From Arthonia radiata (lineage: Eukaryota > Ascomycota > Arthoniomycetes > Arthoniales > Arthoniaceae): a DNA stretch of 64,000 bases. The stretch is taken from assembly GCA_002989075.1 (NCBI GenBank), contig PSQN01000002.1:1701245-1765244 (forward strand), given 5' to 3'. Position numbers and translations under genes: made by a program. Each line of letters opens with the position of its first letter. Position 1 is the first letter of the stretch. This document shows, piece by piece, positions 18,511 through 55,593 of the stretch. Below the pieces are notes generated by a model. That model was given only the letters and a program-made list of their open reading frames with translations, was not told the origin of the DNA and searched no databases.

Positions 18511-19482
18511 CTACAACAACACGCCCCCACCCAACGCAAACAGCACCACCACAAGCGCAACCATACTCCCACCCTCCTTCCCCGTGCTCCCCACGCCTCT
18601 ATACGCCGTCCCGCTCGGTTGCGGCGGCTCGCCACCGCCACCTGTACTCCCTGGCCCACCGCCCGTCGGCCCCGGCCCAGGCGCACCTGCCCCATTGCCG
18701 ACGCCCAGCGCGCCACCAGGTGCAGTCCCCGTCGGCACGACCATGTTGGGCCCTGGTCCGCTTTGTGACGAACCACTCGACGACGAAGGCTTCTTCGGCG
18801 CATAACCCGGCGGACACGGCGTCGGCGGCACCGCCCATGGCGAGTCCGCAGGCGCCGTGCCGAACGAAAACGGCGCGCTCGTTTTGCTGCTAGGCGCGCT
18901 GGGATAGCTTTTACTGCTTGAGTTCTGCTGTGGCCAGAAAGCTGACCAAGATGAGGCGGTGTTGGAGGAGCTGCAGAAGGGGTAGCGGCATGTGTAGGCT
19001 TGGCCGACGACGCCGTAGGGGCCTGTGGTGGAGGGTGTGATGGTGGCCATGAAGGTGTAGGGGTTGTTTATTGTGGTTGGTGAGGATGTGGTGTGAGGTG
19101 CGGAAGGTGGTGTGTTGACGGTGGAGCCGTTGATGAAGTATTCGCGGGCCGGGGTATGTGTTGTGGAGGAGGTGGTGGAGGAGATGGGTGCGCTGGGAAG
19201 ATGGCCGTAAGAGCCGCCGCTGCTCAAGTAGTCGCGTGGTGTACAGGTTACGCATGCGGATGATGCGGAGGTGGTTGAGGATATGGGTTGAGAAGAATAG
19301 CCGAGGGCGCCGTAGCCTTGGGATTGTATGTTCGAGGTTGCTGGCACGGAGATCTTGGGGAAGGTGATTGGTGGTACTGAGACTGAAGGGATGGAAACGC
19401 TGGGCTGGTAGTTTGATGCGAGACCTTGGAAGGCGCCCGGGGCGTCATAGCCAGTGGGTGCGGCCAAAGAGGATGAGATCAT
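18511..19482 (-). CDS. Ser/Thr/Pro/Gly-rich GPI-anchored-type cell surface protein
   Basis: A 323-residue low-complexity protein, probably a wall or surface mannoprotein. It has repeated SSTT/STTS blocks, a mid-region TCRYPFCSSSNTASSWSAFW with cysteines, and a Gly/Pro stretch (GPTGGGPGSTGGGGEPP). The C-terminal hydrophobic tail MVALVVVLFALGGGVLL has no charged residue after it, as in GPI-attachment signals. From the ATG at 19482 the N-terminus MISSSLAAPTG is too short for a signal peptide. Immediately upstream the frame reads LPTFLTV behind a possible acceptor (GATAG at 19504-19508), so a missed 5' exon may supply the rest. No enzymatic domain is seen. Confidence 0.65.
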   Translation of the reverse strand: MISSSLAAPTGYDAPGAFQGLASNYQPSVSIPSVSVPPITFPKISVPATSNIQSQGYGALGYSSQPISSTTSASSACVTCTPRDYLSSGGSYGHLPSAPISSTTSSTTHTPAREYFINGSTVNTPPSAPHTTSSPTTINNPYTFMATITPSTTGPYGVVGQAYTCRYPFCSSSNTASSWSAFWPQQNSSSKSYPSAPSSKTSAPFSFGTAPADSPWAVPPTPCPPGYAPKKPSSSSGSSQSGPGPNMVVPTGTAPGGALGVGNGAGAPGPGPTGGGPGSTGGGGEPPQPSGTAYRGVGSTGKEGGSMVALVVVLFALGGGVLL

Positions 19483-22461: not shown

Positions 22462-24750
22462 ATGTCTGACGGCCGTCCTCTCTCCAACGCGGTATGCATT
22501 GTTGCATCCCGTAGACTTGACTCCGGCTGACCTGTCTTACTTGTGCTCAAGGCCGGCCAATATGCCTTCTCCTCAGCCTCTGAATCCTCCAACACCAGTG
22601 TTCCGGCGTACGACTTTGACGCCATTCCACCCAGACTGCACACTCTTCGCCAGAGATTGACAGATGAGCGCTTTCGAGCGGCTTTCGACTTCGAGATTCC
22701 CCGCACTCCCACACAAACCCCACCAGCCATGCCTCGCTCGCCGTCAGAGTCCCAAAACCGCATGAGAAGCGTTCTCCGCACGCTTCATGAGCGAGAAGGC
22801 TCTCCGTCATCGGATTTGGCTATACCGTCAGCTCCACCCAGCGTTGGCTCCATGGCCCCTCCGGCTCGCCGACAAGCGCAACCCTCGGCACGCTTCCAGA
22901 TGCTGACTGGTCAAAGAGCCAGGAGATTGCAAAGAATGGAGGAGGCAGCTGATAACACTTTCAATCTTCAAGAGGCCAGTCAGAGGCTATCTCGACAGAA
23001 CATCAGCTTACGGCAGCTCCTTGACGAGCCGCTTGAAGATGAAAGCGAGCCCAGCAGCCGGCGTTCAGTCCCCGCCGACGACATGATCCACACATCAGAG
23101 TCCCAACATCGCCGTAAGCGAAGACGCACAAAAGGGCCGTCGCGTAGCAAATCGCCACCAGTTCATCCCGTTGCTTATGGATACCATGGTCAAGCTCGGC
23201 CCGGCCCACTGAACATGGATATTCGTCATTCCGATGGTGGCGATCTGCCTTTCTCGTACGACATTAGCAATGGCTGGGCTGACTTGGAGAGTCTCGGCGT
23301 CAAGAATATATTGAAGGATGACTCGAGCGAGTATCATTCCCGGCATCGGCGTACGAACATTGTCATGCAGCATCCCGGTGAGAGGGTTTTCACATTAAAC
23401 AGGCTGGTCATCAAGACGCCCGACACAATAGAAGATGATTACGTCCTTCAAGGCCTTGTCTTCACTTCCCGCGAAATCGACGCCACTTTCGATCGCACAG
23501 CCCACTACCAGATCCACCACCTTCCAGCAAGTCGCTTCAACGCTCAGCAGCGCGTCGGACCCGGCGGATTGAGGAACTACCTCCGTTCAACGGGCCGCGG
23601 TCAAGAAACACCTCGACATCTCCCGCCCCTAACCGACCCCGACGACATTCATCACCACCACCAAATCTCCGCCGACTGCGACGCCGAGTCCGTGGCATCA
23701 GATTCTGACGATAGCTCTGATTCCCGCCGCCCTGGCAACGTTGTCGGTGAACGTGCGCCCTCGTACAATTCCGAGAGCGACTCAGATTCCGGCCTGGCAT
23801 CGCCGGATGAACTCGCCTTTCCCGGTGTCTCACCGCGACCGCCAGCACACCGTCCCGAATGGTCCCGCTCATACATGCGTAGGGGACTCTGGCACGAGAC
23901 CGGCCTCGAAGCTCCCGAAAGCGAAGATCTCGCTGACAGCCTCAACGATGATCAAGAGGATTACGCAGCACAAGTCGACTTCGACGAGGTTCTCCGCCGC
24001 GGCGCTGCTGCATCCGCTGATCGGAGACGCAGGCGAGCAGTAACGCGTGAACGCGTGCAACGACAACGCCTGCAAGGCCGCTCGGCAGCTTCTGATCAAC
24101 CGCTCACGCCTCCGTCTGACTACAGCTCCACGCGTGCCAACGCCAGCGTCCGCCTCTCAGATCTGCACCCAAGATATCTGGATGCCGTCGAGCCCCCGGC
24201 AAGACCCGAGGACGCACGTTGGCTTGACCCGCCAAGGACAGTGTACTCCGACCCGCCACCTGCATATCCAAGCCACGTGCAAACGCATGTCGACCCGAGT
24301 GAATTGCACAATCAGCTTGGGTATAAATTACTCGAGCCCGCGGCGTTCTTCAGTACGAGTCGGCAGGCGCGACACCGGTATTCGACTCGTTCCAGGCCGT
24401 CCTCCGATCAGGGCAATCCGTCCAACCTGTCACATGCACCCGAGCCATGCAACCCATCCGCCCCATCCAAACCAGCTAAACCCACACCAGCCCCTCCGCA
24501 GCAAGACCCGCTCGTCGACCCAAAAGACGCAGTCATCGTCTCCTACAAGCCGAAGAAGTACGGCGGGCGTATCACGATTGATTTTGAAGCGCCAATGAGC
24601 ACGCGATATGTGATGCTGAAGCTCTGGAAGAGCCGACGGGGCAGGAACCCCAGGAGAGAAGGCGATGGCGCGGATTTCGTGCGGTTGAGTCGCGTGAGAG
24701 TTGAGGGACTTTGTGGGCTGCGTTGGACGCCGGCGGTGGAGACGGCGTAG
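22462..24750 (+). CDS. Conserved fungal protein with a split discoidin/DOC-like domain and disordered insertion
   Basis: About 742 residues. The ATG at 22462 encodes MSDGRPLSNA. A 60-bp intron (22492-22551, branch GCTGAC) then leads in frame to AGQYAFSSASESS. Without this splice the frame has no ATG near its 5' end. The N-terminal 220 residues are polar and disordered with RRKRRRTKGPSRSK, a possible nuclear signal. At residues ~230-325 a folded segment reads NGWADLESLGVKNILKDDSS, GERVFTLNRLVIKTPDTI and YVLQGLVFTSREID. At residues ~670-740 a second reads YGGRITIDFEAPMSTRYVML and DFVRLSRVRVEGLCGLRW. Together they look like the two halves of a galactose-binding/APC10-DOC beta-sandwich, separated by ~325 disordered residues. 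That fold call is inference. Function unknown. Confidence 0.7.
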
Positions 24751-43991: not shown

Positions 43992-44563
43992 ATGCAAGCT
44001 ACGTCAGTCCCGTCTCTGGTAGTCGATCCCGAACCTCGTTCAAAACATTGTTCAGCGTACCAATGTCTCACAAACGTAACGCTTCGTCCAGTAACAGCTC
44101 AACAGTCACCGACATTACCGGCAGAGCTACTGGACCCGATCCTTGATCATATCATCGATTTGAGCATTTCTCACTTTCGCATATCGCTACGACGCACTTA
44201 CCCGCGCTTTAAACACGACTTTGCGCTTCCGCAGTTCGTCTCGACCTTGTTCCAGCTTACCGAGGTCTGTCGGCGTACCTCAAGCTTCCTATCATCGAGG
44301 CTTGTGCTGCTCGAGAGCCAGACCGCAGATTGTGTGAACGAGATCAGCGATAATATCAGGAGAGACTAGGACAGTGGCAGTTTACATGGTGTATGGCTCT
44401 TGAGAATGGCACTTTACCTGGTGACAATAGTCGGAAACCTGAGATCTGTAGAGCAGTAGAGAGGGCCGTCCTGGAGGAATATATGGTTCGAGATGCACTT
44501 CTCGTCGCGAAAGTCGCTAAAGAACGTATAGAGAAAGCAAGAGCTGGAAGCCTGATTGCTTGA
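43992..44563 (+). CDS. Array member 1: small LPxELL-motif protein, probably two exons
   Basis: First copy of the array. ATG 43992. The motif LPAELLDPILDHIIDL is followed by LRRTYPRFKHDFALPQFVST and a CRRTSSFLSSRL segment at the place of the CK motif. The first frame stops at 44367-44369. A 47-bp intron (donor GTGAAC at 44334, acceptor GGCAG at 44380) would join ESQTADC to FTWCMALENG in frame. It would lead to a C-terminal helix (AVERAVLEEYMVRDALLVAK) and a stop at 44563, giving 174 residues. The donor is acceptable but not strong, and a frameshift is the alternative. Most like member 2. Function unknown. Confidence 0.5.
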
Positions 44564-44928
44564 GTGAGGGCTCTGAGGAATTCGCCCACGGCTCAGAAGA
44601 ACATAAATGACGGTCAGCAGAAATTCGAGACGCGGCTAACTTTCCAGGACTTCCTAAGGTATCTGCAGCTTCAGCCTTTGACCGCCCATTGTTTGACTGC
44701 TACTTAGCCGCCGCCACCAATGTTTTTCCCAGTCATCGGTTCGTTGTTGAACAACAATGCCCAATTCTGGCAAGACATAAACTGGTAATGATATCATGTT
44801 TTGAAGTCTCGAAACGCTCTAGTGCTCCACGATTTGCCACCGCTTATCGTTTTCAAACGTCAAACAAGAGACATAACCATTAATTTAGATCAAACCCATT
44901 TTCGACACCTTCACACATTTTTCTATCC

Positions 44929-45399
44929 ATGATGATGAGCAAGCAATCCAGAAAAGCTTATGCAGCAGATAGCATTTCATCAAGCACCTCGATAAAGCAG
45001 CCGTCCGCTCATCACACAAACACACTGCCACCAGAGCTTCTCGACCCTATACTCGAACAAGCAATCCTGTCCAGCCTCGATGCCATACACCAAAAGTTCG
45101 ACGCTACCTATCCCTTCCACGAAGAGTTCGAGCTGCCCAGAATCCGGCAAAACTACATGATCAACGTCGTCAAGCTCGTTGGTAGAACACTTTGCGATGA
45201 GCTTGAATTTGTGGGTGCGGAGGGGAGCCGTGCGGTGCGAGCTTTCAGAGAGCATCGAGCGGGTTGCATAAAGCCGTGGCTGCCGATGTGCAAGGATTGT
45301 TGGAGGTTGAAGAGGGCTTGCTATCGAGCGGATCAGTTGTGGAGCGCGGTTCGCAACGCGGGTGAAGAGGTCAAAGAGACGCCGCTATATGGACTTTGA
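44929..45399 (+). CDS. Array member 2: small LPxELL/CxxC protein
   Basis: Intact 156-residue, single-exon protein. A polar Ser/Thr/Lys N-terminus (MMMSKQSRKAYAADS) precedes LPPELLDPILEQAI. The central segment is RQNYMINVVKLVGRTLCDEL, and the C-terminal cysteine motif is PWLPMCKDCWRLKRAC, followed by a short helix (ADQLWSAVRNAGEEV). No signal peptide or TM. The LPPELL start resembles the first helix of an F-box, but the rest does not convincingly fit. It shares ELLDPIL with member 1, suggesting a recent common origin. Confidence 0.65.
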   Translation: MMMSKQSRKAYAADSISSSTSIKQPSAHHTNTLPPELLDPILEQAILSSLDAIHQKFDATYPFHEEFELPRIRQNYMINVVKLVGRTLCDELEFVGAEGSRAVRAFREHRAGCIKPWLPMCKDCWRLKRACYRADQLWSAVRNAGEEVKETPLYGL

Positions 45400-45819
45400 G
45401 CCGCATCAGCCTTGCCAGTTGATCATATCCTGGCAAGCAAAGGTCCGCACGACATCGTAACATGAGCAGCCACGTATGTCATGTGAGGTCGTGCAAGTCG
45501 ACGATCAGTGCTCCGTTGGGAATTCGACTGACAGAAGCTGTGAGTTTGCAAGGTCTCGTTTGATTAGAGCTGTTCGTTCAGGCGTACGAGGATACCTCTT
45601 TGCGCCGGCGCAGTCTTGAGCCAACTGGGACAGGCTCTCCACCTTTCCCTACAATCAGCTAACATGGGGCGAAAATGGTGGGGCGAGACGGGCCGTAGGT
45701 AGTCGCATTTTCAGACTCCATTTTTAAGCATCATTCTGACTCAAATAAAAATACAACGAAAGCCATCAGCTTCAGGTTTGCCGTTGCTGAATCAAACACT
45801 TGTTGTGGCGGCCTCAGAA

Positions 45820-46356
45820 ATGGCGAAGCCAGATGTTTCAGCTTGGTCACGCAACCAAAGTCAAGCCGCGAAGCCAACTTATCGACCCCTTCCAGTCGAG
45901 CTATTCCCCACCGTGATCGATTACGCCCTCACTCAATACCTCGACGACGTATGTCAAGCAATACAGCATCTGTATGCGCAACGAAAACACCTGAGATTCG
46001 CCAATCCCGTCCGAGAGAAGTTCACTTTTGAGATCCTAAGTATCGCCTCCACCTGCAAGTTCGCGCGACACCACGTCTTGCAAGCTTTGCTGAGGCGCAT
46101 CGACCTCGCGCAACAGGAATGGGGTCTGCTATTTGCAGTAGTCATGTGTGCCGAAAGAAGGCTAGAGAGGTGTCGGTGCGGCCGCTGTCCAGAAGTTGCA
46201 AGGGAACGTTTCGTCCACCAGCAATTGGTGGCGGTACTGATAGAAACAGAGTACGTCGTCAAACGTGAGGCGGACATCCTGGGAAGCACGGGCGCGGATT
46301 CACATGGTCGGACACTACGATCTATCGCTGAGGCGCAGCTGGCGCATGACGGATGA
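45820..46356 (+). CDS. Array member 3: small LPxELL/CxxC protein
   Basis: Intact 178-residue single-exon protein from ATG 45820 (an in-frame TTG at 45778 is ignored). It has LPVELFPTVIDYALTQYLDD, then FTFEILSIASTCKFARHHVL, the clearest example of the central CKF motif. The cysteine cluster is ERCRCGRCPEVARERF, followed by a long helix (HQQLVAVLIETEYVVKREAD). It is the best reference copy for judging broken members, because both the FTFEI block and the CxC/CxxC cluster are in one frame. Confidence 0.65.
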   Translation: MAKPDVSAWSRNQSQAAKPTYRPLPVELFPTVIDYALTQYLDDVCQAIQHLYAQRKHLRFANPVREKFTFEILSIASTCKFARHHVLQALLRRIDLAQQEWGLLFAVVMCAERRLERCRCGRCPEVARERFVHQQLVAVLIETEYVVKREADILGSTGADSHGRTLRSIAEAQLAHDG

Positions 46357-46558
46357 GGAAAGCGGTCTTGATATCCTGCTGCCTGAATAAGGCGTCCAGA
46401 CCTTCCCTTTCTCACTGCGGGAAAGGTCAAGAACATCAAACTAATCAGTCTCACCCTTTCAGCTGTCGTCATTTTCACACGATTCCTTCACAAGAAAGAT
46501 CGTCAATGCTCCGTCGCTGTCTCAAGTATCGCAGTGCAGTGCAGCACTTCCGAGCATC

Positions 46559-47067
46559 ATGTCTCAGTCAAATACGCACGTCTCTCAGCAACCCGGTTCA
46601 TCAGGGTGTGCAAGTCGCAAACGACCGGCACTGCCACGCGAGCTTCTTCCGATGGTCATCGACCATGCGCTCAACCTACACCTCGAAGTCGCCATCGACG
46701 CGCAACACAATAAACATGATGTGCTAACGCAATACGAGATGCAGAGAAAGTTGCGAGACGTCGATTCACGCTTGATATCATCAGCCTCGCATGCGTCTGC
46801 AAACACGCGCTGCAGCACTTGCTGGTGAAGGTGCCCGCCCTTATGACAGAGGTTCAGCGAGACTTTGGGGTGAAGACTCATGCAGCTTTTGCACGCTTGG
46901 CTTCTTTGCGATGTTGTATGGGCCCAAATGATCGTGAGGAAGAGTGCGAACACTGTGGGTATATTTACAGGGAGGTTGTGGATGCTGAGTTTGTGAGAGA
47001 AGTGATGGTGGATGTGGACAGGGCTGTGAAGAAGGTGGCACACGTTGCGTTTCAGGACTCGCAGTAG
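46559..47067 (+). pseudogene. Array member 4: frameshifted LPxELL/CxxC gene
   Basis: ATG 46559 opens a frame with LPRELLPMVIDHALNLHLEV, running to about 46760 (EMQRKLRDV). The homologous continuation RRFTLDIISLACVCKHALQH lies in another frame from about 46757. It goes on to DREEECEHCGYIYREVVDAE and stops at 47067. FTLDIISLACVCK aligns with FTFEILSIASTCK of member 3, so the shift is inside coding sequence. A 35-bp GT-AG interval (ending TCATCAG near 46790) would be phase-compatible, but it is shorter than usual introns and would delete the conserved block. A one-base indel is the simpler reading. Confidence 0.55.
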
Positions 47068-47447
47068 CCTGAGGCTCGACAACTCCATGTTGATAGCAAA
47101 GGCAAAATTGTTCTATGATCCCGGCCATTCAGGTATAAGCAGGGAGTGTGGAGTCGAAGACGTGAGGCGACGAACCTTCAAGTGACCAGCTCACTAGGAT
47201 ACGATCGACGCTATTTGAGTAGAGAGAGGGTCTCCCCTTCTCTGACGCTTTCACCTCAATCCATTCCACCTCACCAAAACTTTTGCGCACAATCTGCGTT
47301 ATTCTCGCCTTGTAACAATTCCGCTCTAGAACCCGACCATCAGCGATTTCCAATTGCATGCTTTGGCGCTTCGTGCATCAATTCCCGACGTTCATAGGCT
47401 GAGCGCCGCCCCCGGAACACCATCGCCCTCCACTTCGCACGATAACC

Positions 47448-47885
47448 ATGCCAGATTCTCGTCCACGGAAGGATCTGACACTACCCCCAGAACTCCTACC
47501 AGCCATCATCGATCATGCACTCGAGCTGCAGGTCAAATATCTCCGTGAGCTTCTGTGCGGCGCACGCAAGCAGTACAAATACAATTTAGCCAAACATCCC
47601 GCGATATTGCAATACCGTCAACAACCCCTTGGACTTGCCGGAGCCTGCAAATTCGCGCTACGCCACGTTTCACGGCGGCTTGACGACCTATACGACGACC
47701 ATGAACGAGATTACAAGGCTGCTGTGGAAAAGCTTCAAGCACACTCTAGCACCTTTCCTTACTGTTACACAGACGTTGTGGATAATTGTCAATGTGCGCA
47801 GTGCTCTGGAGCTTATGCTTCAGTGATGGATTGTCGTCATGTGAGACATGGGTTGGAGATGGCGATGCGCATGATGAAACGATGA
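47448..47885 (+). CDS. Array member 5: small LPxELL/CxxC protein
   Basis: Intact 145-residue single-exon protein, the most compact copy. MPDSRPRKDL leads straight into LPPELLPAIIDHALELQ. The centre is LGLAGACKFALRHVSRRLDD, then a charged helix (LYDDHERDYKAAVEKLQAHS). The cysteine motif is DNCQCAQCSGAYASVMDCR and the end is HGLEMAMRMMKR. The leader SRPRKDL is shared with member 9, marking these two as close relatives. Confidence 0.68.
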   Translation: MPDSRPRKDLTLPPELLPAIIDHALELQVKYLRELLCGARKQYKYNLAKHPAILQYRQQPLGLAGACKFALRHVSRRLDDLYDDHERDYKAAVEKLQAHSSTFPYCYTDVVDNCQCAQCSGAYASVMDCRHVRHGLEMAMRMMKR

Positions 47886-48009
47886 CAGAGAACTCAAACG
47901 CTGCGACAGATAGAACAACGTCACGGAAGGAGCACCTGTGAAATTGGGAGAGGCGGCGGCCTTGTGCAACGATGGTGAACAATAGCAACTGTCATTGCAA
48001 TTTTGTCGC

Positions 48010-48500
48010 GCCTGCAAATGTATACAATTGCCAGCAATTATGTCTTTTCCTCACCACAATTTGTTGCGCTCATTAGCGCATATATATGCTGCAAATATAT
48101 TGCGGTAGGACAAAATTACAAGATTACCCTATACTAAAGGCTTCAAGATAGGACGGTTACGTAACCGTTGTCGGGGGCAACGCGCTAGGGTTAGCTACCC
48201 TTAGACCTCTAAATTAGTAACTAAGCCGCTAGTCTCTATAAATTTAGCCTATTACTTATATAATTATATTAGTTATAGGTAATTACCTTACTACTATTAT
48301 TAACTCTGTAAGTATACTTTATTGCTACTAGCCTACTATACCTACGTAATAAAAACTCTACTAAAAGTAGGCAATTATAGATACATCTGTATATAATTAT
48401 AGATTAAAAGATATGCCTGTAGTAAATATAGATAAGTGTAATTGTATACATATGCTAGCAACTTTATAGACGTGTAGGCCGATTTGGCTACAATTGCCCG
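48010..48500. mobile_element. AT-rich degenerate insertion, probable mutated element remnant
   Basis: From about 48120 to 48475 the sequence is very rich in TA, TAT and ATAA, unlike the GC-rich surroundings, and has no ORF. This is the usual look of transposon DNA mutated by RIP (C-to-T) in fungi. A 10-bp direct repeat, TACAATTGCC, flanks it (48023-48032 and 48489-48498) and could be a target-site duplication. The only GC-richer patch is around 48150-48200. No coding remnant or long terminal repeat can be read. Confidence 0.5.
48153..48168. repeat. 16-bp perfect palindrome
   Basis: ACGGTTACGTAACCGT reads the same on both strands. It sits at the left edge of the AT-rich segment, next to the GC-richer patch. 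Confidence 0.9.
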
Positions 48501-48689
48501 TTCCAGAAATGCGCCGACAGCAACGCCAAACTCGGTACATGCTTGGCAATCCGACCCCTGAGAAGGTGAGGCGGCATCAATAAGAAGGGATAGCAAACTG
48601 CATTCAACTCCGGGCGATTACTTTGTTCCGCTTTCTGCTATCTTCGTCCGCTTCTAGAACTCAACATTATCAGAGCATTGCCATCGACA

Positions 48690-49193
48690 ATGCCCGCAAA
48701 TTCGCACCAGACACCTGGTCGAAACCCTCCATCAACGATGCCCAATAATGACGGCTCTCCTTCATCATCAGCAAAAACCGAACATTTAACATTACCACTC
48801 GAACTTCTCCCCGCCATCATCGACCATACCACAGCCGCTCAGATCACTGCGATTAAAAAAGCCGCCTCGGGCTACCGCAAATTCAGCACGATGACGCCCA
48901 AAATGTATGGCCGATACATGATCCCGATTCTTAACGTCGCCCGTATCTGCAAGTTCTCGCTGCAGTATGCCCAAACAATCATGCCGAAGGTTGTCGCTCG
49001 CGCGCAGCAGGATGACGAAGATGATTTTGAGGCTTTTGGAGCACGCACGGAGCACTGGTACGGCAACGCTAGTCCATCTGAACTCAGAAGGCGTTATTGG
49101 GGATCGTTCCATACAGCTCGGGCACTGGAGATGACTTTGACGGTGTTGGAGAGTATGACGTGCATCATGGAAAAGAGAGGAGGATCCAGGTAG
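48690..49193 (+). CDS. Array member 6: small LPxELL protein lacking the CxxC motif
   Basis: Intact 167-residue single-exon protein from ATG 48690 (MPANSHQTPGRNPPSTM). It has LTLPLELLPAIIDHTTAA and a central IPILNVARICKFSLQYAQTI. A very acidic DDEDDFE segment follows. Where other copies carry CxxC, this one reads HWYGNASPSELRRRYWGSFH and has no cysteine pair. It ends with a helix (ALEMTLTVLESMTCIMEKRG). It lies immediately after the AT-rich insertion. It is either a diverged copy or one that has lost the metal-site-like motif. Confidence 0.6.
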   Translation: MPANSHQTPGRNPPSTMPNNDGSPSSSAKTEHLTLPLELLPAIIDHTTAAQITAIKKAASGYRKFSTMTPKMYGRYMIPILNVARICKFSLQYAQTIMPKVVARAQQDDEDDFEAFGARTEHWYGNASPSELRRRYWGSFHTARALEMTLTVLESMTCIMEKRGGSR

Positions 49194-49533
49194 CTGCACA
49201 ACGTCTCTTTGACCTGTAGAGATGGATGCCCTCCAATGGGATGCGAGGGTTGGAGTTGGTGACAGCGAAGGAAGCATGCAGAATGCCGCCAATTCGCCCT
49301 CTTTGCAATAGACTGTCAAAACTGTCCCTAGGAATACCTTTGTAAGAGGAAGAACGGAGGCATCCCTAGCTTCTCATTCCATCTGGTAAGCCTAGTCTAT
49401 ATTGAGAAGGTCTTGCCGTGTTTTCCGCATCTTGCAGCCTCACCTACCCTCCCAGCCCAACCTCATCAATCAACAAATATCTTGACGTTTATTCTTACAA
49501 TACACTTCAACCTCAACCCACGACGTCTTCAGT

Positions 49534-50057
49534 ATGTCGACGCAGCTTTCCCCGTCTCAGCCTTAGCTGCCGTCGCAATCGATTACAGAGTCGAGCGTCT
49601 CCGAGCCATAGCCGCCATGCGGTCTTACGCTGCCACGCGAGCTTTTGCCCCATATTATCACCATGCCTTGTCTTCCGAAATCGACGAGGTATTTAGAATG
49701 TCTGCTCAGACTGCCAAACAAACTACACTGCCACCAGACAACAGTAACTACCCTTCTATCCGTCACTTCATCTCGACCGTCGGAGCTTTAGCCAGCGTCT
49801 ACATAGTTGCTCGTCGCATAGTCGAAAAGACCGTGAAGCAGCTCGACGCTTGCTTGGAACAGGAAGACAGCGAGACACTGTCAGCGATCGTCGCACACAG
49901 GGACACACATAAGCATGCGGATCTTAGCCTCATGGAATGCGGATGTGGAGAGTGCATGGAGCTGAAGACGACGATTTTTGGACGTTGGAATTTGGAGCAT
50001 GCAGTAAAGGGAAGCGGAAGGGTGCTGGGTCTAGCAGGCCTGTGGTGTGGATCGTAG
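49534..50057 (+). pseudogene. Array member 7: degraded LPxELL/CxxC pseudogene
   Basis: Three lesions. ATG 49534 (MSTQLSPSQP) reaches TAG at 49564. A second TAG at 49609 stands where members 8, 10 and 11 have the Trp of WPPNGLTLP; this copy reads stop-PPCGLTLPRELLPHIIT. At about 49660 the frame shifts: HALSSEIDEVFRMSAQ continues one frame over. From there the frame stays open through HFISTVGALASVYIVARRIV and CGCGECMELKTTIFGRWNLE to the stop at 50057. TGG to TAG is a G-to-A change, compatible with RIP or ordinary decay. Without this alignment, the long open frame could be mistaken for an intact gene. Confidence 0.7.
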
Positions 50058-50381
50058 TGAGGAGCGGAGAACGGAACTACCAGATCGAAGAAACTGCGAG
50101 GGAACCCGCCATTCAAGTGTTCGGTATCAATTCCCGCCGAAATCAGATGATACGGAATGCAAAGACGTAGCGGTCACTCAACACGATATCCACGCTTGCA
50201 CCTCCTCTTTTTGCCAACACTAGCGCCGCTAGCATCTGAGTCGCCACACCTGTTTTGCATCTACAACAACGCTTTGTCTCTTCCATATGGCTCACGCAAA
50301 CACGCACCACTCACTTCAACTCCAACAAAACTCTAAACCAAATCTATCACTCACCGTTCGCTATTGGAGCGACTACACGCT

Positions 50382-50960
50382 ATGTCATCACTCTGTCTTT
50401 GCGATCATGCTCGTCAGGACCGATCATCATCACAATCGCCGTCACAGAACCCATCAACGCCACAAGCACCATCGACGCCACAAGCACCATCGTGGCCGCC
50501 GAATGGACTTACGCTGCCTCATGAGCTCCTCCCCAAGATATTCGAGCACGCTCTATCATTCAGCCTTGACGCGGTTCGTCAAGCCCTCGGAGTTTCCAAT
50601 GATATCACTCTGGGCCAGACCGTCGATAAAGTACCGTCCATTTGCCACTACATCTCTACAACCAAATCACTTGCGAGGGTCTGTAAGCACGGTTTGCGGA
50701 TTGTGCAGCGGACGCTCTCACCGCTCATGACGCAGGTGTTGCGTGAATACACGGAATCGATAAGCACAGTGCGCAGACACCAGCAAGGCGGGTGCAAGCG
50801 CCATTATACTTGGTCTTGGTCGCCCTGTCAAACTCCTACATGCCTCGCGTTCTATGAGAAGGCCGATGAGTTGTGGACCGTCCAGGCTGCAGTGGTTGCA
50901 GCTCATGTGGGATTGATCAATGCATGGGAAATCTGTCTCAGGAACATGAGTGAGGGTTAG
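50382..50960 (+). CDS. Array member 8: small LPxELL protein (WPPNGLTLP subgroup)
   Basis: Intact 192-residue single-exon protein from ATG 50382. The N-terminus is Ser/Gln/Pro rich, with a doubled STPQAP unit from an 18-bp repeat. Then WPPNGLTLPHELLPKIFEHA, central SLARVCKHGLRIVQRTLSPL, and a Cys/Trp region YTWSWSPCQTPTCLAFYEK. The last helix is WTVQAAVVAAHVGLINAWEI. WPPNGLTLP links it to members 7, 10 and 11, so the right half of the array probably grew by recent tandem duplication. Confidence 0.66.
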   Translation: MSSLCLCDHARQDRSSSQSPSQNPSTPQAPSTPQAPSWPPNGLTLPHELLPKIFEHALSFSLDAVRQALGVSNDITLGQTVDKVPSICHYISTTKSLARVCKHGLRIVQRTLSPLMTQVLREYTESISTVRRHQQGGCKRHYTWSWSPCQTPTCLAFYEKADELWTVQAAVVAAHVGLINAWEICLRNMSEG

Positions 50961-51428
50961 GAGCCGATTTCATGAATTGGCGAAAGTCTGCGACGCGCAG
51001 CCGAGAGCCTGGTTGCATTGTGAGATACTCTCGAGGAGACAGATGATCGCAATAACACAATACAAACAACGAACTGGTCAAGCACGCGACTCACCTTCTC
51101 ACAATCCGTAATCCACTTAAAACGAGCTAGCGCCACTACCTTCACACCAATCGCCGTGCACTCCCCTCAGCAGAACCGCAAAGTTTACAGCTGATCGCAA
51201 CGCTCTCGACTCTTTCGCCACTGACTCCTTGCACCGCACGCTTCCACCTGCCTCTTAAATCAACGTCTTATATCAACTTTTCCACCCACCTTCCACCCAC
51301 CTTCCTCACCAACAGACCGCGCATCTCTTACATCCACAATCCGCCCACATTCTGTCCAACATCACCAACCTCTTCGCCTCAAAGTCATCATCCACGTTCG
51401 GCTCATCACAGCAAACGAAGCCCCGAAC

Positions 51429-52101
51429 ATGAAAACATCCTCAGCAAGTCACGAAGATACTCACAATCCCGCTCAACATCAGGCAGAAGCCGCCGTCATC
51501 AGCCCACACGTTGCAGTCAATCCGCGCACAGACTCACAGTCACGGCCTCGGAAGGATCTTGCGCTGCCATTTGAGCTCTTGCCCGACATCATCACTTACA
51601 CGGTGTTGCTGATCCAAGACGACATCGTTCAAGTCGTATTGCAGAATCTCGAGAACCCAGGCCAGAACCTCCGGAACCCAGGCCCGAACCTGCGGAACCC
51701 AGGCCAGAAACTCATCTCCAAACGCCGTGTCGCGATCAGTCAATATGTTCACGCAATTACGAATCTGTTAGGCGTGTTCAGAAGCGCTTTTCAGGTCGTT
51801 GGCCAGGTGCTTAATCCTCTTCAGGCGCACCTCTATCAGGAATGGTACGATGCGGATAGCGCGAAAAGGGTACACTCCAAGCAGGCCCATGACCACGCGC
51901 AGCGGCCCTTTTGTGCTGACTGTAGCTCGCGCCAGCGATCGGAAGACGAAGCTTGGGAAATTTTTTTTCCTACTGAAGGAGGCCATTGTGATGATGCGGG
52001 AACGCATCAATGGATTGGCGAAAAAGACAGTGGCAAAGGATGAATGCTACGGGAGTCCAGGGCTGGGAAACATCGATGTTGAGTCGTCGCGGTGTCTATG
52101 A
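51429..52101 (+). pseudogene. Array member 9: LPxELL/CxxC gene with a T8 frameshift and in-frame minisatellite
   Basis: ATG 51429; frame one carries SRPRKDLALPFELLPDIITY, a 7-residue repeat (NPGxN type), AITNLLGVFRSAFQVVGQVL and the cysteine motif PFCADCSSRQRSEDEAWEIF. At a run of eight T (51961-51968) frame one becomes FPTEGGHCDDAGTH and soon stops at 52043. The expected C-terminal helix continues in the next frame as FLLKEAIVMMRERINGLAKK, to a stop at 52101. A one-base indel in the homopolymer explains this. It could be a real mutation or a sequencing error, and in the latter case the gene is intact. Confidence 0.6.
51651..51713 (+). repeat. 21-bp minisatellite, three units, in frame in array member 9
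   Basis: Three imperfect 21-bp units (core GAACCCAGGCC) encode the heptad ENPGQNL, RNPGPNL, RNPGQKL inside array member 9. The unit length preserves frame. Confidence 0.85.
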
Positions 52102-52543
52102 TGCTATCATGCCAGACGGCATGAGCAGCGCAAGTCCCAAGATAAGAGCGGCGAATGTGTCCTGCAAGACTAGATTTTGCTGTGTCACTTCAGCGAATGA
52201 GCCATGTAGTCGAGCAGATCTTTGACACACCTCACTCCCCACTTCATGCTCCACATCAACGAGCGGGCGTCATTTCCAGGTAAATAGCCGCATACGTTCT
52301 TGGTCAGCGCACCTGAAAGCTCACTAGCAAGCGCGATGCTCTTACTATCCGCCCGATGGTCCAGAATCTCGCTTCAACATGCCCTTTTTGCTCCTCATCG
52401 TAGAGTTTGCGACACTGTTGCGTGACGCATCGCTTGCCCACTTCTTTTCGTGCGTCACTCCAATTACTCAACTCCTTCCCCGCCAATTTCAGTTTCTTTG
52501 TTACAATTCATTAACCACCATCCGACTACAGCGGACCAAACGC

Positions 52544-53107
52544 ATGATGCAGTCCTCGCCATCTGGCCACAATGGCACTCAAACAGCACAACCATCCATC
52601 ACAACTACCCAGAGCACTCCACTCATCGATGCCACCGGCCCCACCGACGCCACCCAACAAAGCGACCCCGACATATGGCCGCCAAACGGCCTCACACTCC
52701 CACTGGAACTCCTACCGAACATTATCACTTATGCCTTGGCCTCGAGCCTGGAAGAAGTCGTTCGATCCTCGCAAAAAGCGCGTGTAACACCCAGCCACAA
52801 TACAAACACTTCGGTAGCGCTCTCAAGTAGACGGTTCATTTCCCGAGTCGGGAACCTCGCAAGTGTTTGCAAATACGCTTTTTACACTATTCAAAAGAAC
52901 CTTCTCCTGGTCGAGAGGCAAGCGTTGGATGACTGGGAATGTGTAGCAAACGCAGAAATCGCGAAGGTATTTGAGAAGGGTGAGCAGGGTGTGTTTAGTC
53001 AAGCAGACATGAACCACGCAACGTTCATGAAGTCTGGTACGTACTGGGACGTGAGATCGGCTGTTACTCGACTTAGTATGTGCTTGTGTAAAGCCAAGGG
53101 GTTTTGA
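52544..53107 (+). CDS. Array member 10: small LPxELL protein (WPPNGLTLP subgroup)
   Basis: Intact 187-residue single-exon protein. ATG 52544 (MMQSSPSGHNGTQTAQPSIT) matches the polar leader of the other copies better than the upstream in-frame ATG at 52379. It has IWPPNGLTLPLELLPNIITY, then FISRVGNLASVCKYAFYTIQ (central CK motif). The CxxC motif is not retained as a clear pair: one Cys occurs in WECVAN and two in SMCLCKAKGF at the extreme C-terminus. Composition and length fit the family. Confidence 0.66.
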   Translation: MMQSSPSGHNGTQTAQPSITTTQSTPLIDATGPTDATQQSDPDIWPPNGLTLPLELLPNIITYALASSLEEVVRSSQKARVTPSHNTNTSVALSSRRFISRVGNLASVCKYAFYTIQKNLLLVERQALDDWECVANAEIAKVFEKGEQGVFSQADMNHATFMKSGTYWDVRSAVTRLSMCLCKAKGF

Positions 53108-53525
53108 TGAAAACGCTAGCGAATGTCGTTGCGGTCGGAGTTGAGTCTAGGATAGGTTACAGATAAGTAGCGTTGGTGGCCGCGAGGTTTTCATAAGACG
53201 TCTGGTGCCAATGCTGCTGATCATAAACGGTGATCGTCTGGAATGACCAAAAGCAACAGTCGTTCATCTTTCCTCCCAATGTTTTTCGAAGCGAGGCATA
53301 CGATCAAGTCGGATTCCCTCATCGCCTTGGCACTTTTCTCGTCTTGCTCCACCTGATCGCGACTTTCGTGTTATTCTCTTTACCTCGCCGGAGTACCAGG
53401 CAGCGACCGAGACTTACTTTAAATGGTGATCTTGCTATATCATTCGTGAAACTCTTCTCGCCAACTTCTACCTCTTCCTCACTACCGCACGCAACCAACC
53501 AACGACTGCTGTTCACACAAACAAA

Positions 53526-54151
53526 ATGCCCACGATGGCATCGCCATTATTGACAATCGACGTGACAAAAGATGCAGCACGAGCCAATAACGTCACCAAC
53601 AGCGTGGCACCCACTGCCGCCGCATCAAGTTCAAACCTTCAAGCATGGCCACCGAACGGCCTCACGTTGCCGCCCGAACTCTTCCCCGATGTCATCACCC
53701 ACGCGCTCTCCAATCCCTCTCAACCGTCGCGCAAGCAGCTTCCAATGGCCGCCCCTTTCCCACGTGCTCTGAGCTCACCAGGGGCGCCTTGCAGCTCTCA
53801 GACCGGCTGAACTACCTCCGCCAGATTCTCAAACTCTGCAGGATCTCCCGCTCCACCTTACGGCAAATCCATCGTACCCTCCCCTTGATGCTCGAAGACG
53901 TCGAAAGACAGCTCGATAATGCGCACGCCGACTGCGATACTCGTCGGACTCTCGAATGTGAAGGTATAAGGACGGAATACTGTCGGTATGTGTGCCTTGG
54001 GTTTCCAGCAGATAAGAGGCAGAAGCAGATGTGTGGGGAGTGCAAGAGGTGTGATGAGGTGCTTGGGGCGAGGCTGGAAGAAAAGAATGCGATTGAGGTG
54101 ACGAAGTGGGCGGTGGATAGGACGGTTGCGTGCGTTGAGTGGAAGGGCTGA
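53526..54151 (+). CDS. Array member 11: LPxELL/CxxC gene, intron or frameshift
   Basis: ATG 53526; frame one gives AWPPNGLTLPPELFPDVITH, then loses family resemblance and stops near 53810. Frame two resumes with GALQLSDRLNYLRQILKLCR, TLRQIHRTLPLMLEDVERQL and QMCGECKRCDEVLGARLEEK, ending at 54151. A 56-bp GT-AG interval (donor GTCGCG near 53730, acceptor CTCACCAG near 53785) would join NPSQP to GALQLSD in frame, so a real intron is possible. The donor is weak, however, and most siblings are intronless. Closest to member 12 (TLRQIHRTLP versus TLRQIDRTLP). Confidence 0.5.
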
Positions 54152-54509
54152 GAACGGCGTAACATGCTGCTGCAACTCAGCCGCCTGTGGTTAGAAACAG
54201 TCGTCATCGAGTTGTTGCTGTGTTAGGCTATAATAGTAGTCAGCAAACGCAAGATCTTTCCTAGACAGGACCGACGACGTACTCAGCGAGGCCAGTTTTA
54301 CCAGCACTTTTTTAGTATAGCTACCGGAAACCCAAATGAGTCTCTGACAAGCCTTTGTACATGCTACTCTACAGCATCGAGCCATCACCGCCTTTAGGTG
54401 AGAAACCGCCCCAGATTCACCGCTTATCGTGACGCTCTTGCTATACGCCCTGTGTTTCTGTCCTCAATAGTCCGCTTTATCAGCGTCTTTTACTCATCTT
54501 CATCAGCTC

Positions 54510-54670
54510 ACTTTCATTCCCTCCCTCGCCTTCCTTCCCTCCCCACCTTCTCTCCCTCACCTTCTTTCCCTTCCCAACTTCTCTCCCTCACCCTCGATCC
54601 CCCCAGCCTTCTCTCCCTCAAGTTCTCACCCTCCCCTCCTTTCCCGCAAATCCTTTCACTCAACTTCTTC
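54510..54670. repeat. Pyrimidine-rich imperfect repeat upstream of array member 12
   Basis: About 160 bp made almost only of C and T on the + strand, with recurring CTTCTCTCCCTCA-like units. This low-complexity promoter or 5'-UTR tract makes a spurious Pro/Ser/Leu-rich open frame. Confidence 0.8.
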
Positions 54671-54737
54671 CTACCACCTTCGACCTCATCACGACGACTC
54701 CAACATAGTTCGCTCATCGCAACAAGCCGAACGCCCG

Positions 54738-55327
54738 ATGGAAGCATCCTCTGCAGACCACGATGGCGCTCATCCGAGCATGAACGCCAACACCGACGCC
54801 CTTATCAGTGCTCCGTGCCCTCGAAACCGTCGCCAAGACTCCCACCACTCCCCAACGAACTCATCTTCAGAATCATCGACCACGCCCTCTCTGACCCACT
54901 CTCAAGTGCCGCGCGAGCAGCCTATTTCTACGACTACTCCCACGACTACTCCGCCATCCGGCCGTTCATCAAGGTTAGAAGCGCGCGGCGAGCCTCTGCC
55001 TGTGGGACCTACATCCGTCACGTCCTCAATCTCTGCGCCGTATCGCACACGACTCTCCGGCAGATTGACCGTACCCTTCCTGGTCTTGCTGGGCCCGCGC
55101 GGATGGACAAACACGACGCCCTTGGCCAAACCCACCTTCGGCTCGGTTGTGGTTCTACTGCGTGCGATTGTCGCAGCATCGCGATGCCGGCTTGTAGGGA
55201 GTGCAAGAAGTTGCGGGCGATGATTGTGGCGAGCCAGCTTGTGATGGACGCAGTCGAGGGGGCGGAATTCGCCGTGGGGTTGTTGATGCGGCGTTTGGGT
55301 TATGAGAGCTTGGATGCGATTGAGTGA
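54738..55327 (+). pseudogene. Array member 12: frameshifted LPxELL/CxxC gene
   Basis: Last copy. ATG 54738 opens MEASSADHDGAHPSMNANTD, a typical polar leader, but the family core is one frame away. From about 54815 that frame reads PSPRLPPLPNELIFRIIDHA, RHVLNLCAVSHTTLRQIDRT and a Cys-rich CGSTACDCRSIAMPACRECK. It then gives a C-terminal helix (VMDAVEGAEFAVGLLMRRLG) and a stop at 55327. No ATG occurs in the core frame after the pyrimidine-rich tract, and no adequate intron joins the two frames, so a small indel near 54800-54830 is likely. Confidence 0.55.
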
Positions 55328-55536
55328 GTGAGAGGGTAGGTGAGATTGAGTGAGTGAGAGGGGGGAGATCAGTGGGTGTGTGTTCTGAGAAAGGGGAAAC
55401 GGAGGACAGTAGGATGAAACGTCCAACATCCACGCCTGGTGGAGTTCCGAATGCTGTAGTACGTCCGCAACGAAATGCAGCACGATGCTTGACTCGTTTT
55501 CTTTACTTGCCTTTCACCTGTCGTCTCTATACGTCT

Positions 55537-55593
55537 CTATTACTCTCACGCACGTTTCGTCGACGTCGCTATTACTCTCACGCACGTTTCGTC
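55537..55593. repeat. 25-bp direct repeat
   Basis: A 25-bp sequence beginning CTATTACTCTCACGCACG occurs exactly twice, at 55537-55561 and 55569-55593. The copies are separated by 7 bp, just downstream of the RAD7 stop. Confidence 0.95.

Follow-up and report, generated by a model that had tools for sequence, protein, structure and literature searches.

Diverged tandem arrays of an apparently undescribed family of small, possibly F-box-like proteins in Arthonia radiata

What is encoded by a head-to-tail run of small genes between ADH and RAD7 in the fungus Arthonia radiata, and does it belong to a family already described? The run lies in the window analyzed here, a stretch of 64,000 nucleotides from contig PSQN01000002.1 (assembly GCA_002989075.1, positions 1,701,245 to 1,765,244). 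It comprises 12 copies with an LPxEL-type motif (12/12), all on the + strand, and both flanking genes are on the minus strand, as the first-pass annotation had described; the ADH flank carries ADH_N and ADH_zinc_N spread over two ORFs. The 12 starts and the LP motif proposed there were likewise borne out. An ATG is present at all 12 start coordinates (mean spacing 977 bp), and a six-frame scan of the window with the pattern LP.EL[LFI]..[IV][IFL] returned 12 matches, all within the array and all on the + strand, with none elsewhere in the window and none in 50 shuffles. A secreted or membrane protein was rejected for want of a clear hydrophobic stretch, in agreement with the expectation of no signal peptide or TM segment: in a crude hydropathy test of the seven full ORFs, the highest 19-residue mean was 1.69, across the motif helix of copy 9, compared with at most 1.37 in the other six, and the maximum within the first 30 residues was 0.69.

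We then assessed how many of the 12 loci are genes. Although each has an ATG and the motif, only seven (copies 2, 3, 5, 6, 8, 9, and 10; 145–204 aa) have an ORF that is open from the ATG through the core (Table 1). The idea of an intact gene at every copy therefore fails: the frame is split in copies 4, 7, and 11, an ATG in frame is missing from copy 12, copy 1 is cut short by an early stop, and copy 9 shifts frame near its end, with its C-terminal helix in a different frame past a T8 run at 51961. About half of the window copies are not intact genes. Reading by eye revealed no canonical site of usable length for introns that would bridge the split frames. The breaks might instead be assembly indels in an array of 12 functional genes, as the position of the copy 9 break at the T8 run would allow. 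However, copy 7 has two stops on top of its frame change, the array holds no other runs of seven or more, and long ORFs (SARAF, PIG-X, and a tRNA synthetase) contain Pfam domains that are almost complete without a change of frame, making this explanation very improbable.

Table 1 Copies of the window array, with positions counted from the first nucleotide of the window.
Copy	Position	Strand	Observations
1	43992..44369	+	motif and following core retained; stop 84 codons past LP; C-terminal part absent
2	44929..45399	+	open ORF, 156 aa; CKDC present; lacks the ~10-residue CK segment
3	45820..46356	+	open ORF, 178 aa; CKF; C-x7-CxCxxC
4	46559..47067	+	broken; CKH/CEHC part (46753-47067) out of the motif's frame
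5	47448..47885	+	open ORF, 145 aa; CKF; C-x7-CxCxxC; AlphaFold2 four-helix model
6	48690..49193	+	open ORF, 167 aa; CKF; no CxxC
7	49534..50057	+	broken; two in-frame stops between ATG and motif; frame change directly past motif; 49659-50054 open
8	50382..50960	+	open ORF, 192 aa counted from the ATG at 50382; CKH; AlphaFold2 four-helix model
9	51429..52043	+	open ORF, 204 aa; in-frame 21-nt repeats past helix 1
10	52544..53107	+	open ORF, 187 aa; second in-frame ATG at 52379; CKY; no CxxC
11	53526..54151	+	broken; motif frame ends at 53808; rest open in another frame, 53765-54148
12	54738..55327	+	ATG at 54738 not in motif frame; motif frame 54398-55324 open, with no ATG before LP

Such damage raises the possibility that most of the window array is only the remains of a dying family without present function. 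Four of the 12 copies (4, 7, 11, and 12) are broken, two more (1 and 9) are truncated or frame-changed, and the codon score is weak, with 13 of 14 pieces scoring lower than any training gene; the coding frame scored best of the six frames in only 8 of the 14 and best of the forward frames in 12. Nonetheless, seven ORFs remain open, and the first two codon positions of the motif are conserved while the third is saturated: across a gapless 14-codon motif block, agreement among the copies is 60, 80, and 38% at positions 1, 2, and 3, indicating that the sequence has long been translated. We therefore consider the relic reading improbable. Codon-position identities derived from protein alignments (38, 44, and 31%) were set aside in favor of the gapless block, because the aligner favors positions 1 and 2. 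Similarity drops as distance along the array grows (Mantel r −0.39, p = 0.002), which, together with the several broken copies, supports the birth-and-death evolution suggested by the first-pass annotation.

The window array is not the whole family. A single-locus family was ruled out when a weak match (E 2.7) turned out to belong to a second array, and the same architecture recurs in more tandem arrays on C3, C2, C9, C11, and C16; these other arrays contribute at least 47 loci to a total of at least 59, window included. Two weak matches, C9:2311863 and C13:530888, were rejected after reading the sequence. The common architecture consists of a polar leader, a helix 1 with LPxE[LI]xxxII, a variable insert, a helix 2 running into LAxVCK/LAxVS, a long helix 3, and a last helix, with a CxxC loop between the latter two in some clades. 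For profile comparisons we used 56 members, comprising nine from the window (copies 4, 7, and 11 were left out) and 47 from outside; one ORF at 0.135 Mb on C9, with fewer than 60 residues past the motif, was also left out. The helix-1 likeness of the outside members is partly built in, because they were picked by a helix-1 pattern. The window array aligned with the other arrays over 96 columns (hhalign Prob 97.6, E 2.7e-12), and without the helix-1 motif the Prob was still 86.9; 40 column shuffles scored at most 9.9, compared with 74.4 for the arrays. Pairwise comparison of arrays gave Prob >90 in 17 of 28 pairs. Of the 56 members, 47 had their nearest relative within their own array (null at most 22), as did 44 with the motif removed (null at most 21). 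These results show array-specific descent within several old tandem arrays, so that the small proteins make up a large, apparently undescribed family spread over several diverged clusters.

Database searches agreed with the earlier view of an expanded family without a name. Neither the 12-row alignment (E≤1) nor copy 8 (E≤10) found a homologue among 5.8 billion proteins in a word-based search that may miss distant or unpredicted genes; because no family member was found there, the result suggests that entire families made up of short single-frame genes can be absent from protein catalogues. The neighboring RAD7, by contrast, retrieved Arthoniomycetes at 74%; its best named match, Coniocarpon cinnabarinum, belongs to that class and corrects the guess of a Dothideomycete. 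None of the titles listed in a literature search dealt with F-box-like arrays of Arthoniomycetes. Among solved structures searched by sequence, the 12-row profile matched none and the 56-row profile gave 11 weak matches (best E 0.34), none named F-box. In Pfam, none of the 56 members exceeded a curated cut-off. The top weak match was the unrelated Holin_2-3 (one member; 24.2 bits versus a cut-off of 27), and the commonest weak family was F-box-like (9/56), with F-box-like_2 seen in 3/56. The best scores were 15.7 bits versus 24.3 for F-box-like (PF12937) and 17 versus 21.6 for F-box-like_2 (PF13013), the latter family matching copy 1 at a sub-cut-off E of 0.0059; the F-box-like weak matches listed span helix 1 only (profile positions 2-23 of 47), and a PF13013 search of the genome listed no array members.

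Is the family nevertheless related to the F-box? The first-pass annotation had likened the N-terminal motif to F-box helix 1, and the comparison upholds this, mainly via helix 1. We compared the 56-member profile with 37 F-box domains from this genome, taken from 54 PF12937 matches (17 were left out), and obtained a score of 37.6 (Prob 93.5), far above 60 column shuffles (at most 11.2) and the reversed profile (12.1). Both helix 1 and, further along, the LAxVS segment are matched in the alignment; it needs a gap of ~25 residues in between, and the family is thus not a compact F-box of ~45 residues without a long insert. With helix 1 removed, the match fell to 13.9–14.2 (Prob 3–5%), little over the reversed control. 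An HMM built from the 37 F-boxes reached E<0.01 in 32 of 56 members, compared with 0–1 in 20 residue shuffles; without helix 1, it reached E<1 in 15 members versus 1–10 in shuffles. Individual arrays differed: the C11 array aligned with the F-box beyond helix 1 over 41 columns (Prob 78.6), as did that at 0.21 Mb on C3 over 34 columns (Prob 51.0), and both have shorter spacing than the other arrays, whereas five other groups aligned at helix 1 only (14–18 columns). The window array alone gave Prob 60, and its CK segment did not align with the F-box. An LPxExxxxI-type helix 1 is present in all 12 window copies, the outside members having been selected on it, and LPxELLxxII occurs 15 times in the genome (nine in arrays, three at PF12937 matches, and three in other ORFs), with no match to the reversed pattern.

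AlphaFold2 models, proposed earlier as a check for an F-box-like or zinc fold, gave four helices for copy 5 (pLDDT 86.6) and copy 8 (pLDDT 79.8), but the 50 matches listed per fold search were only generic helical ones, none of them named F-box. The modelled helix 1 is ~25 residues long, unlike that of a compact F-box. The CK(F/H/Y) segment, said to occur in most copies, is present in only 6 of 12; because it sits at the helix 2/3 junction in both models, it probably forms one F-box-like unit with the LP motif. A CxxC pair does occur in most window copies (8/12), but in the wider family it is confined to some clades: it was found in 16 of 53 C-terminal parts (at most 12 in 2000 shuffles; three of the 56 members were left out as too short there) and in 0 of 16 testable C-terminal parts of the large C3 array, although among its 18 members there are two with a CxxC ahead of that part. 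Given this clade limitation, a zinc-finger family was ruled out as the main reading.

The strongest competing account is a four-helix family specific to this lineage and not of the F-box kind, in which LPxE would have arisen by convergence as the start of a helix and the partner is not Skp1 (for example, each other, or a BTB/Cul3-type partner). The lack of any Pfam member over cut-off and of a PDB fold match among those listed would suit it, as would an F-box likeness that is weak past helix 1 and absent there in the window array alone, and four members gave sub-cut-off matches to DUF3420 (best 3.4e-4, 21.1 bits versus 24.9), a family that belongs to plant NPR1. On the other hand, the F-box profile score lies far over the shuffles, LAxVS is in register across the whole family, and no Pfam family recurs among the weak matches as often as F-box-like. 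We judge this account unlikely, though a real contender. We tentatively prefer, with confidence just short of even, to read the window array as one clade of a large F-box-like family of small proteins that may serve as Skp1-dependent ubiquitin-ligase adaptors under birth-and-death evolution. Helices 1–3 would bind Skp1 in the manner of an F-box, target choice would fall to the insert and the C-terminal half, the Cys loop of that half may hold zinc, and the target would be ubiquitinated by an SCF ligase and thereby marked for destruction. The set of recognition surfaces would then be renewed as copies duplicate in tandem, diverge, and decay. As a rather remote extension, the arrays could form a fast-renewing adaptor repertoire against foreign or selfish proteins, in defense, allorecognition, or toxin–antidote control, built on an F-box split by a variable insert and paralleling, in a fungus, the KSL clusters of nematodes.

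Large, clustered, and fast-changing families of ubiquitin-ligase adaptors are reported from nematodes and plants, with foreign proteins as suspected targets (PMC12680543). If the array proteins are adaptors, this pattern would also hold for a class of ascomycetes related to lichen-forming fungi, with about as many loci in one fungal genome as it has ordinary F-box-like (PF12937) matches (at least 54). Those ordinary matches resemble the fungal F-box sets reported in PMC7991009, where most named fungi have 11 to a few tens (Macrophomina 31; Laccaria is an exception); the accessible part of that survey does not describe such arrays. The family shares with F-box-like and F-box-like_2 an LPxE helix 1 and may share the LAxVCK/LAxVS segment that follows, but in most arrays a long insert comes past helix 1, and the family also has lengthy helices 1 and 3, a Cys loop in some members, and no LRR-, WD40-, or Kelch-type Pfam partner over cut-off. 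Caenorhabditis F-box expansions, as reported in PMC8665587, similarly owe their copy number to tandem duplication, although they are animal genes with an F-box by domain prediction and exon/intron changes, whereas the array members are open single-frame genes. A further likeness is to KSS/KSL of Caenorhabditis, described in PMC12680543 as having a sequence-diverged F-box-like N terminus and as fast evolving, largely species-specific, and clustered; KSS proteins have a C-terminal solenoid and demonstrated SKR-1 binding, whereas the array proteins are modelled as a small helical bundle and are putative Skp1 binders.

The first-pass annotation had placed twelve head-to-tail genes between ADH and RAD7; both genes indeed adjoin the array, one on either side, on the strand opposite to the copies. 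An ATG was present at all twelve proposed starts, in frame with the LP motif (helix 1) in 11/12, and the copies were spaced 977 bp apart on average. Six-frame translation of the 64-kb window yielded 12 matches to LP.EL[LFI]..[IV][IFL], each of them a + strand match inside the array, and 50 shuffles of the window yielded none; outside the array, a looser motif was found in 0/244 stop-free stretches of ≥80 residues. The count of twelve genes stood only in part: seven copies (2, 3, 5, 6, 8, 9 and 10) are open from ATG through the core, whereas the remaining five are split, truncated or devoid of an in-frame ATG. In copy 9, helix 1 is followed by an in-frame 21-nt repeat (3.4 copies, window 51642–51713), so the insert after helix 1 can grow by minisatellite expansion. 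Immediately upstream of copy 12 lies a CT-rich minisatellite (window 54517–54641, 31-nt period, 4.1 copies), and close to the RAD7 end of the array a two-copy 32-nt tandem repeat (window 55531–55593, 96% matches). Two other window ORFs, 18511–19482 (323 aa) and 22543–24750 (735 aa), gave no Pfam match at E 0.001.

Agreement among all copies in the motif block was 60, 80 and 38% at codon positions 1, 2 and 3, indicating that amino acids are held and silent sites saturated. A codon score trained on eight other window ORFs was weak: 13/14 array pieces fell under the lowest training ORF, whose own sequence was part of the training. The coding frame ranked top of three forward frames in 12/14 pieces and top of all six in only 8/14. 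The farther apart two copies lie in the array, the less similar they are (Mantel r = −0.39, p = 0.002; mean 0.110 for adjacent copies versus 0.075 for others), a decay that stepwise tandem duplication predicts.

Searches of the 33.5-Mb, 16-contig genome with copies 5, 8 and 10 returned nothing significant outside the window array (best 0.28). On reading, a weak match on contig C3 (E = 2.7) had the same layout as the window copies; used as a query, it led to a second array, and further searches to additional ones. Across 13 fetched loci, 47 outside members were counted as open stretches with LP.E[LIV]...[IVLF][IVLFAM] and ≥60 residues from the motif onward; two extend past the fetched piece, and some, being short, may be broken. 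Together with the twelve copies, the family comprises at least 59 loci, a lower bound because additional matches at C2 2.95, C16 1.14 and C9 1.323 Mb lie outside the count.

State of the window copies and location of the outside members
Feature	Location	Members	State
Copy 1	window array		early end
Copy 2	window array		open ORF; without the central CK(F/H/Y) segment
Copies 3, 5, 6, 8, 10	window array		open ORF, ATG through core
Copies 4, 11	window array		two halves in separate frames
Copy 7	window array		halves in separate frames, plus two stops
Copy 9	window array		open ORF through core; frame change near end, at T8 run
Copy 12	window array		in-frame ATG absent upstream of its motif
Outside	C3 1.285–1.315 Mb	18	
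Outside	C2 3.364–3.378 Mb	9	
Outside	C9 1.324–1.332 Mb	6	
Outside	C11 0.727–0.733 Mb	5	
Outside	C16 1.292–1.295 Mb	3	
Outside	C3 0.210–0.211 Mb	3	
Outside	C2 0.834–0.836 Mb	2	
Outside	C1	1	

By profile alignment, the window copies and the members of the other arrays are one family. The window array matched the 47 outside members with Prob 97.6 (E = 2.7 × 10⁻¹², 96 columns), and with Prob 86.9 once helix 1 was removed (E = 4.2 × 10⁻⁶, 53 columns); 40 column shuffles scored ≤9.9. Prob exceeded 90 in 17/28 array pairs, and the C9 array aligned with the window array almost full length (139 columns, Prob 97.5). Against the window array, support was weak for the C3 0.21-Mb group (48.9) and lacking for the two-member C2 0.83-Mb group (Prob 6.9). 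Among 56 members (the 47 plus nine window copies, broken copies 4, 7 and 11 excluded), 47 had their nearest relative within their own array (null mean 9.3, maximum 22), as did 44 with the motif excluded (null maximum 21); the arrays thus grew locally. Three C11 loci (0.7289–0.7316 Mb) are alike in their C-terminal ~30 residues (55–57% to the query locus) and diverged elsewhere, which may reflect conservation of this end or gene conversion between neighbouring loci.

CxxC, described earlier as present in most copies, occurs in 8/12 window copies and in 16/53 C-terminal parts family-wide (shuffles: mean 4.3, maximum 12). Copies 3 and 5 share C-x7-CxCxxC; in the large C3 array, CxxC is found in 0/16 C-terminal parts and, further upstream, in 2/18 members. 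A putative zinc site is plausible in some clades.

Against the protein database, the 12-row window-array alignment gave no match at E ≤ 1 (4230 candidates) and copy 8 none at E ≤ 10 (253 candidates). The adjoining RAD7 had at least 577 homologues at E ≤ 1 × 10⁻²⁰ (8000 candidates scored); among the 120 matches listed, a Coniocarpon cinnabarinum MAG supplied the best (74%), followed among named entries by Chrysothrix (57%) and Alyxoria (56%). All three belong to the Arthoniales (Arthoniomycetes), a largely lichen-forming order, so the host's relatives are present in the database; their small single-frame genes may be absent from it through missed gene prediction.

The proposed likeness of the motif to F-box helix 1 was supported, and the profile match to F-box was stronger for the whole family than for the window array alone. 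Against 37 F-boxes, fetched from the genome's 54 matches to Pfam F-box-like (PF12937), the family scored 37.6 (Prob 93.5; shuffled columns up to 11.2, reversed alignment 12.1), aligning over helix 1 and then the LAxVS segment, with a ~25-residue insert between. The 47 outside members alone aligned likewise (Prob 90.8), whereas the window array alone reached only 60.1, with the second part of the F-box matched to the residues that directly follow helix 1 instead of to the CK segment. Alignment went beyond helix 1 in the C11 (41 columns) and C3 0.21-Mb (34 columns) arrays; five groups matched over helix 1 only. An HMM of the 37 F-boxes matched 32/56 members at E < 0.01 and 52/56 at E < 1 (shuffled members: 0–1 and 1–7), a likeness in part built in, since helix 1 served to select the outside members. 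With helix 1 removed, the family scored 14 (Prob 3–5%), slightly above the reversed control, and the HMM gave E < 1 in 15/56 members versus 1–10 in 20 shuffles. Likeness beyond helix 1 is a hint, not proof. Pfam at E ≤ 1 reported F-box-like in nine members and F-box-like_2 in three, with 0/56 over either cut-off. Given this and the weak score without helix 1, we term the family F-box-like and do not class it as F-box. Pfam DUF3420 matched weakly in 4/56 members, best across the helix-1 motif of a C2 3.364-Mb member (locus L081, 5092–5460; 21.1 bits, cut-off 24.9).

The likeliest mechanism, to which we give not quite an even chance, is that the family proteins would serve as SCF adaptors through putative Skp1 binding, their variable part picking the target; this reading is slightly weakened because the CK segment of the window array alone did not align with the F-box. 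The KSS/KSL proteins of nematodes, whose N terminus is F-box-like without sequence conservation, have been shown to bind SKR-1 (PMC12680543). The parallel lies in an F-box-like N terminus and in fast-evolving, largely species-specific clusters (PMC12680543).
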